64,000 bases of DNA, from assembly GCA_022264855.1 (NCBI GenBank), contig JABYQU010000039.1, forward strand, positions 124,001 through 188,000, given 5' to 3'. Both the position numbers and the translations under genes were made by a program. The notes under the pieces were generated by a model that searched no databases, was not told the DNA's origin, and was given only the letters and a program-made list of their open reading frames with translations. This stretch comes from Lenzites betulinus (Eukaryota > Basidiomycota > Agaricomycetes > Polyporales > Polyporaceae). Below, piece by piece: positions 27,203-30,200 of the stretch (position 1 is the stretch's first letter; each line of letters begins with the position of its first letter).

Positions 27203-30200
27203 TTATTCGCCGGCGAAGAGACGCACGAGCATGTATGTCGTCGACCCGAGGAAGCGAATCACTGTCGCGGCACGTCGCTGTCAGTTTTGCTCTGGCGGGG
27301 ACGTCGGGGGAGAACACTTACGCGCGAGGCCGGCGACGGAGAACAGGATAAAGGCCATGTATCCGTTGACGGTGTTGTGCGCGCCCTTGTCGGACGCCTT
27401 GCCCGTCGCAGTGCTGCAGAACTCGGGATCAGCCGGGCCCAAACACGTCTCATGTGGGGAAGTCAACATACACGATGATGGCCGCAAGCAGCGCCTGGGG
27501 AGACACGGCAATGGTCAGCAACGGCGCGCCACGGAGGCTCACAAACTCCACTCACATTGGACAGCGTCCACCAGAGGAGGACCTGGCGGCGGCGCAGGCC
27601 ACGTCAGTATCGGATCAGCACACCACTTCATAGACCTGAAACTCACACTGGAGAGCGCGTCAGCGACCTCGTGTCATCCAAAGAGGGTATGGGCGCAGAA
27701 GACTCACTTAGTTCTGAAGCTCCTGTAGTAATCCTCCTGCTGCGTCTGCGGGTCCGGCTTCGACTCGGCCTTCGGGGGTTTGGTGGACAGCACGTGTATC
27801 GCGTCCTCATACGCCGCGTTAATGTCCGTCTCGGCCGTCGGAACTGACACCTCCACTTCGTTCTTGTTCGGGCCTGTTTTCACCACGCCAAGATCGGTCG
27901 AGACCTTGTTGTCGCCCTTGGTACCCCAGGACACATCACTGCGGAAGGCGGGGAAGAGCGATATTAGGTCAGCAGACTGGACATGGCGGGTGAGATTGTA
28001 TGAATCAAACGCACTGTACGTTGGCAAACTGAGATATGATTGATTCATCAGCATCAGCTTCAGCGGACATAGAACGGGAGACGCACAGCATAGACGTTGA
28101 GCACGGAAATGTACGAAGGCGCCATGAGCAAGTATTGAACGAACGACGTAATCATGTGCCATGGCTCGAACTGCAGCCGAGATGTCAGCACCAAATAGAA
28201 CTTAGCACAGAAAAGACTGTGACATACGAATATGAGAGACGCGAGGATGTACAACCCGAGAGTCGCCAGGAGTGAGATGACGATATTCCGGAAGATAGAG
28301 TTCGTAAAGAGTTCATTAGGCGAAAGGGGCCCATCGCTCTTGATGATGTTGTCCACGCCCTTGAAGGCCAGGAAGAACGCCGCAATCTGCGTTTCGAATG
28401 CACGTGGTTGAGTTAATCTGTGCCACAGGGAGATAGAGGGATCATTACCGTCATATAGACCGTGATGACCGCAAAGCCTATGAAGGCCAACGTGTATCCC
28501 CATTTCGCGCCTTGCGGCCTGTTCCCGAGCGCGAGGATGTAACACAGGATGAGAAGCCCGAGGTAGAAGTATTCCAGGATGACGTTGACTACATGGACAC
28601 CATTGCCGAGATTGAATGATGGATCCTCCAGCGACTCGCTCAGGATGGTGAATGAGATGAAGTAATTTCCCTGCGGCACCATCAGCGGGATGGAGAGAAC
28701 GCATGACCAATATCGTCACTTACCAGAGCAAACCAAGAGAAGAACAAGTTAAAGCACTGATACAACAGCTCAACGTGGATCCAAAATTTGCGCAGCACAG
28801 AATGTGACGAGCGGTAGATGTAGTGAAACTTCACGGTACTATGAATGGCTGCGAAGAAGGAGCCGTTCAGCCACCGACGCCGCTGACTAATCAGCTCGGG
28901 AACCTGGCCGGGTCATCATGAGCCTGCATCACACGTCGGGCCCCATAGCATCTGAACACACCTGGTCCGGGACATCCGTGACAGCATACGCCGACTTGAC
29001 GTAGTGCAGGATCCAGGCGCCGCCCCGCTTTGAGACCAACTCCCAACAAAGAATCTGCCGCACACAATCAGGCGAAACCTCGGCGAACGGCATCGGCACG
29101 ACTTACACGGTCCTCTGCGAGGTACATGTTCGCGGTGAAAATGTCCGCCCCAGCCCCGTGCTTCCGTCATGTTCAGCAGGTGATACTCGAGCCAGAAACG
29201 CGGGCGCACTCACCATCTTCTCGCCAAGGAAGTACTTCTGCAGCGGGCCTTCGCCCGTCTGGTCGTTCTGCAGTGCAATATAGCGGTACGCACTGAAGGC
29301 CCCTGGCAAGACGGTGATGTAACCGAAGACAGACTCCCTTCGCGAAGAGGAAGGTCAGCGCATGAGGCTACTGACATACCAAACGCCACTTACAGAGGCT
29401 TGTCCAGAATATTGGACATCTTGTACTCGAAGTTTTGTGCAGCCACTGCGAAATCACCGGTCAAGGTTCGGCCGAATATTGAGCCACACCGGGGACTTAC
29501 CGAGCGGGTTGATGAGATTGCGCAGGTACTTGCCCTTCAGTGCGACAATTTCACCGCAGGCGCCTCCGACGTTAGAGTTGATGTCAAAAGCCTTCCAAAG
29601 GTGGTAGATCGACGTAGGCCCGGGCATCGTGCCGACATCCAACAGTACGCAGACGTTGGGCTGGAGAATCGGTCCGAACGCATTGAAGAACCATCGGTGG
29701 GAGTTGATCTTCTTCTGGTTCTTCTCTTTTAGGCAGAAGATCATTTGAACCGGGACGATGCCGCGCTCCGCGCCTTCAATCTTCATTGACGGCGTTACGG
29801 AGACTTCATGAAGAGGTCAATGCAATGTCTCAGGGGGCGGAAATACAAATGTGACATACTCTGGGTGGTGTACTCATAGATGTGAGCGGCCACAGGCTTG
29901 CCGTTGACAATGTTCTGCCGGACATGTGAGCGCGGGCACGTTCGTGAGCGAAATGAACATACCTTCGCCACGCCGTCCTGGTACGCACCCATTGCGGCAA
30001 TAACGCTCAGCGTGCGCGAGTTGATCTTCAGCCGACCGTCAGACACAATACACACAACGACCTTCTTCCAGCCCTCCTTGCCCCACGTCTTGCTCCGGTC
30101 ACGTTTGCACAGGTGAGCAATGTTTTTCATGACCCCGTGCATAGTCCGGCAAAAGAGCTCCTCGTCCTCGTTGTACATGGTCATGACGATGAAGAGCTCC

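Follow-up and report, generated by a model that had tools for sequence, protein, structure and literature searches.

The chitin synthase gene and its small exons

The window, by which we mean the whole 64,000-nt stretch of the Lenzites betulinus contig JABYQU010000039.1 that was analysed, carries a chitin synthase gene on its minus strand (31052-27203), for which a hand-built, script-checked model of 19 exons was obtained. These exons total 2,817 nt, that is, 938 codons and a stop codon, in line with the length that the first-pass annotation had given. The model is backed by homology and by Pfam, in which the protein showed the Chitin_synth_1N (100 bits; cut-off 22), Chitin_synth_1 (277.9 bits; cut-off 25) and Chitin_synth_2 domains. 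With its Chitin_synth_1 domain and its full-length relatives, the protein is a chitin synthase, which we take to be of division 1. Its top protein matches were those of Trametes punicea and Lentinus tigrinus, each at 92% over residues 600-938.

Tiny exons are clustered in the 3' part of the gene, where the 14-nt microexon 13 (28015-28028), the 27-nt exon 16 (27556-27582) and the 23-nt exon 17 (27472-27494), all on the minus strand, accompany the exon of one nucleotide that is discussed below. Because several such exons occur there, this part of the gene is prone to misannotation. Exon 14 (27708-27938, minus strand; 231 nt) ends in ...TTC AGA ACT AA and hence in phase 2, while exon 16, which encodes VLLWWTLSN and starts with GTC CTC CTC TGG TGG, is read in phase 0. 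The 125 nt that lie between them (27707-27583) have one match in the whole genome assembly of 37.4 Mb and 108 contigs. Within this interval, two complete introns are predicted on either side of a single T at position 27647, which is designated exon 15 and forms the third base of the Asn codon AAT. Intron 14 (27648-27707, minus strand; 60 nt) has the signals GTGAGT...CTGAC...CTCCAG, and intron 15 (27583-27646, minus strand; 64 nt) has GTGAGT...CTGAT/CTGAC...GCCAG; their CTGAC motifs begin 16 and 25 nt before the respective intron ends. Both the phase conflict and the two introns with their GTGAGT, CTGAC and CAG signals had been described in the first-pass annotation, and both were confirmed to the base.

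Splice signals and alternative solutions for the junction

Intron lengths elsewhere in the gene range from 46 to 76 nt (16 introns; mean 56.8, sd 6.7), so that a single intron of 125 nt would be an outlier, whereas the 60 nt of intron 14 and the 64 nt of intron 15 are typical. Both are also ordinary in their signals: the donors scored 9.1 and 9.1 (2.7-9.9 within the gene), the acceptors scored 5.7 and 6.0 (3.6-8.8 within the gene), and each contains the YTRAY branch motif, as do 12 of the 16 others. When the 125-nt interval was dinucleotide-shuffled 200,000 times with its first six and last three bases fixed, a YAG-N-GTRNGT pattern that left both introns with at least 45 nt arose in 403 shuffles, the same pattern with T or C as N, which would preserve the Asn, arose in 275, and a strict version that required GTRAGT and two CTRAY branch sites arose in 5. 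A comparison of the two introns with each other showed that they were not clearly more alike than expected (218 of 2000 shuffles scored as high), and there was thus no clear signal in this comparison that the pair had its source in an intron duplication.

Across the genome, the motif CTGACN{6,30}CAGNGTRAGT was found 17 times (including the target and with two matches representing one place) compared to 10 times for a reversed-pattern control, while there were 17 matches (control 11) with a spacing of two bases and 15 (control 11) with one of four bases. A one-base spacing therefore showed no genome-wide excess over a spacing of two or four bases. Because the motif is not enriched, it proves nothing by itself, and the case rests on the protein. 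After the 17 matches had been filtered by frame and splicing, the target was accompanied by candidates at five other loci (L015, L017, L018, L021 and L027). L017, whose printed upstream donor is also GTGAGT, was considered as a further one-nucleotide exon and was rejected by eye on the basis of its translation.

An enumeration of the possible splicing solutions covered GT-AG, GC-AG and AT-AC introns of at least 35 nt from the start of exon 14 to the end of exon 16 and required a product that ended in LLWWTLSN and had no stop codon. It yielded 17 single-intron solutions, none of which keeps the FRT and all of which take 25 nt or more from exon 14. Eight two-intron solutions were obtained when the outer sites were kept constant and an exon length of 1 (mod 3) was required: two contained stops, five inserted between one and nine residues and only the single T gave FRTN-VLL. 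Within the limits of this enumeration, the one-nucleotide exon is the sole canonical solution that keeps FRTN-VLL, and the T is needed both for the frame and for the conserved residue. The first-pass annotation had claimed that the frame breaks without the T, which proved correct: joining 27708 directly to 27582 shifts the frame and leads to a stop after 919 codons. Additionally, retention of intron 14 would cause an immediate stop after FRTK, and retention of intron 15 would give a product of 1,032 residues whose tail is out of frame. In the case of the five insertions, a four-nucleotide exon TGGT (27625-27622) is in frame, has GT-AG introns and would give FRTN-G-VLL, but its introns would have 82 and 39 nt and hence fall outside the range of 46-76 nt, its donor GTGCTG looks weak and the extra Gly occurred in none of the 145 homologues examined (0/145), which leaves this solution with a practically negligible probability.

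The Asn codon in paralogues and homologous proteins

The genome yielded three further Chitin_synth_1 loci, L009 (contig C69), L010 (contig C38) and L011 (contig C45). At the junction, L009 reads RTNVLLAWVLSN without interruption (CGC ACG AAC GTC CTC CTC); it has the next intron, after Ser-Asn, and is without introns 14 and 15. L011 reads RTNVVLAWVGTN and also has no intron at this place, so that RTN-V is uninterrupted in two of the three paralogues, while L010 reads FRTRLVSFWMLSN with FRTRLV at the junction. Among the solved chitin synthases, of which six distinct sequences were matched and four alignments were shown, FRTNVLL is found in 8k52, and the position of the Asn is occupied by Met in 7stl and by Leu in 7xs6. 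Because of the FRTRLV of L010 and the Met and Leu of these two solved enzymes, the Asn is not absolute. Its description as family-typical in the first-pass annotation therefore holds for the Agaricomycete homologues that were examined, but not for every related enzyme.

Three protein searches returned 1661 (at E<=1e-20), 769 and 966 homologues, and the best 120 of each, 145 distinct proteins in total, were classified according to their residues at this codon. A set of 29 proteins, referred to here as cDNA-like, came only from the sources lgn/jgi and from contigs of 2.2-6.6 kb; judging by source and contig size, they probably derive from assembled transcripts as uninterrupted ORFs. Clean RTN-V[LF][LM] was present in all of them (29/29). 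The 116 annotated homologues were far more diverse, with 70 having a clean Asn (counting P0125, which lay outside the anchor of the script and was read by eye as clean RTN-VLL), nine a clean Lys and four a clean Arg. Inserts followed N-V[SC] in 11 and K in 13 (nine with just one residue, C or Y), and one record had another insert. The script found no VLL in six records with N and two with K; those with N comprise P0004, P0092 and P0094, which go on with V-S, P0130 with N-VML, P0135, which jumps to the C-terminus, and P0055, which is considered below. About 45 of the 116 annotated homologues hence deviate at the Asn codon. Clean Asn in 29/29 cDNA-like against 69/115 annotated homologues, as counted before P0125 was added, corresponds to a Fisher p of 3.5e-6, and among the homologues at least 78% identical to the query region the values were 7/7 against 6/30 (p = 1.7e-4), although both p-values are rough since the homologues are related and garbling itself lowers the identity. 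The annotated records with a clean Asn may have lost an intron or may be correctly modelled.

The clean Arg without an insert, either a real residue or a further artefact of annotation, was observed in P0110, P0121, P0122 and P0123, which belong to Coniferiporia, Fomitiporia, Phellopilus and Sanghuangporus; Coniferiporia was placed in the Hymenochaetaceae by look-up, and the other three presumably belong there as well. In the record of Fibroporia radiculosa (P0030, 1408 aa), PF07690 stands beside the chitin synthase domains, which probably reflects a merged gene model.

In a relative with one intron at the Asn codon, a gene finder should give a clean FRTN-VLL, and its failure at this codon therefore suggests that there is no one-intron solution there. 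Moreover, 23 of the 116 annotated homologues have donor-like residues at this place. The N-V-S and N-V-C of 14 records are as expected if the second donor had been read as codons (Y-GTNAGT or Y-GTNTGT), and the K-C and K-Y of nine records are as expected from AAG-TGY or AAG-TAY if the first donor (GTGCGT, GTATGT) had been read to an inner GT. When the corresponding mistake was made in the DNA of the L. betulinus gene, with a 12-nt exon consisting of the T plus GTGAGTTTCAG, the translation paralleled the annotated protein of Trametes versicolor, FRTNVSFRSCCGGRYRTRSLRPSS; the T. versicolor protein regains the frame at TATGK, whereas our 12-nt-exon model does not. Donor-like signatures were found in the Polyporales (Trametes), Agaricales (Mycena), Gloeophyllales (Neolentinus), Amylocorticiales (Plicatura/Plicaturopsis) and Russulales (Auriscalpium); for each order, the placement of one species was looked up, and the order placements of the remaining signature-bearing species are assumed. 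A clean Lys, which alone is weak, also occurs in the Cantharellales (Botryobasidium) and Hymenochaetales (Schizopora). Taken from the proteins, these patterns may reflect a double intron at the same codon in the relatives.

The homologues bear on three other explanations of the junction. Were the interval of 27707-27583 a single intron, either canonical or shifted by a base to non-canonical ends (e.g., GT-CA), the product would have a frameshift or a Lys. The clean FRTK-VLL of nine annotated relatives is what would result from keeping one G from either end, and a one-G mismatch model of the L. betulinus locus indeed gives FRTK-VLL. The canonical form meets the frameshift described above, the length of 125 nt is far outside that of the other introns, and Lys was found in none of the cDNA-like homologues (0/29 compared to 9/116 annotated, which is too rare to be tested alone). 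A read mapper facing a one-nucleotide exon could yield exactly such a Lys, and the clean Lys is thus a possible mapping artefact, with a real substitution as the alternative. We regard a single intron as highly improbable. A joint skip of exons 15, 16 and 17 would connect exon 14 with exon 18, where AA and C again form Asn, and would shorten the protein by 17 residues. Since these exons sum to 51 nt (1 + 27 + 23), the frame would be kept and a hydrophobic stretch would be dropped, and exactly this form, FRTN-TATGKA, is present in the Ganoderma lucidum record P0055. This record is the only one of its kind among the 145 homologues and could itself stem from erroneous gene prediction, while N is followed directly by V[LF][LM] in 29/29 cDNA-like and 70/116 annotated homologues, which makes the skip very unlikely. 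An assembly or sequencing error that dropped one exonic base next to one real intron is extremely improbable: no such error would bring forth a further complete set of donor, branch site and acceptor, and the assembly has the interval in one copy. Many annotations of relatives are likewise garbled at this codon, and that of T. versicolor fits the same T followed by GTGAGTTTCAG. In contrast to these explanations, we consider exon 15 to be, with high confidence, a genuine constitutive exon of one nucleotide, the T of the Asn in FRT-N-VLL.

Proposed removal of the two introns and known single-nucleotide exons

The T at 27647 would be included in the mRNA by the removal of two ordinary short U2-type introns that are one base apart and lie on either side of the last base of one codon, the first in phase 2 and the second in phase 0. 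Both would be recognised by intron definition, as each is short and has its own donor, branch site and acceptor. Simultaneous occupation of an acceptor and a donor at a distance of one base is hardly feasible, and introns 14 and 15 would therefore be removed consecutively; either order would lead to the same mRNA with the predicted junction ...AGAACTAATGTCCTCC... The removal of intron 14 changes the context of the second donor from AGT/GTGAGT to AAT/GTGAGT (the slash marks the exon-intron boundary). The donor consensus is MAG/GTRAGT, to which the latter is marginally closer, a difference too slight to indicate which intron leaves first. The choice that the first-pass annotation had offered, splicing that is recursive or that truly recognises a one-nucleotide exon, is best understood as intron definition that proceeds sequentially.

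Stwintrons, in which one intron is nested in and interrupts a splice signal of another, likewise involve adjacent introns and consecutive reactions and are easily missed by automatic annotation (PMC5639578). The L. betulinus pair resembles such an arrangement, but both of its introns have an intact GTGAGT, branch site and CAG, no signal is split and an exonic base that is needed in the mRNA lies between them. The pair is not a stwintron on these features, and such a reading of the locus deserves almost no credence.

The first-pass annotation had regarded one-nucleotide exons as rarely reported and had named a plant gene as an example, which is broadly right but incomplete, as those of plant VPS55 and Fusarium CYP621A have also been published (PMC8831610, PMC12940212). 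Established nuclear cases include plant APC11 and VPS55 (PMC4674806, PMC8831610). A coding exon of one nucleotide between two introns, predicted in our case, and a proposed stepwise intron definition are common to them and the chitin synthase gene (PMC4674806, PMC8831610). The plant exons are also conserved across a large clade and absent from reference annotations, and RNA aligners misplace their reads (PMC4674806, PMC8831610); the chitin synthase gene may offer parallels to all of this. For APC11, stepwise removal was argued, and around a 9-nt exon in potato the second intron leaves first (PMC4674806). The plant cases differ in the kingdom and the genes concerned and were shown by RT-PCR and RNA-seq (PMC4674806, PMC8831610), whereas the chitin synthase exon is predicted from sequence. 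In fungi, a one-nucleotide exon in CYP621A of Fusarium was reported in February 2026, and the abstract claims it to be the first for a fungal gene (PMC12940212). Similarly to our case, it is described as lying between two short introns within an apparent intron of 139 nt (F. graminearum), its one base completes a conserved codon and it was detected through a phase mismatch (PMC12940212). It differs in that its base is a G (AG-G-GT) and that it is documented from Fusarium orthologues and SRA reads (PMC12940212). The chitin synthase exon, read from the genomic DNA, is a T, occurs in a basidiomycete and has a wider apparent spread. The mitochondrial cox1 exon of placozoans is not spliceosomal. 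It shares with ours the length of a single base (PMC5436844). A survey of the Ganoderma lucidum chitin synthases gives 4-16 introns per gene, and its available excerpt mentions no microexon (PMC12595948). A literature search of titles and the first parts of abstracts revealed no one-nucleotide exon for any basidiomycete or chitin synthase, and reports outside this search may exist.

The one-nucleotide exon is probably old in the Agaricomycetes and may predate the split of the orders, because the signatures occur in the Polyporales, Agaricales, Gloeophyllales, Amylocorticiales and Russulales. We lean slightly towards the broader view that it is an old feature of this chitin synthase that was retained across the Agaricomycetes and went unseen as gene prediction and read mapping produced Lys, Val-Ser or extra residues in its place. 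If so, few single-nucleotide exons outside plants would be as widely distributed, it would be located in a cell-wall gene, and splicing would have to be stepwise in every transcript. The exon extends the so far very short list of single-nucleotide exons to a basidiomycete and to an enzyme of the cell wall, and it offers a natural substrate for examining how splice sites separated by a single base, a donor and an acceptor, are dealt with by the spliceosome. A recurrent error in the public fungal protein records may also have its source here, and the pattern of this error, Asn-Val-Ser/Val-Cys or Lys with Cys or Tyr between blocks that are otherwise conserved, could reveal more one-nucleotide exons from protein databases without the need for RNA.
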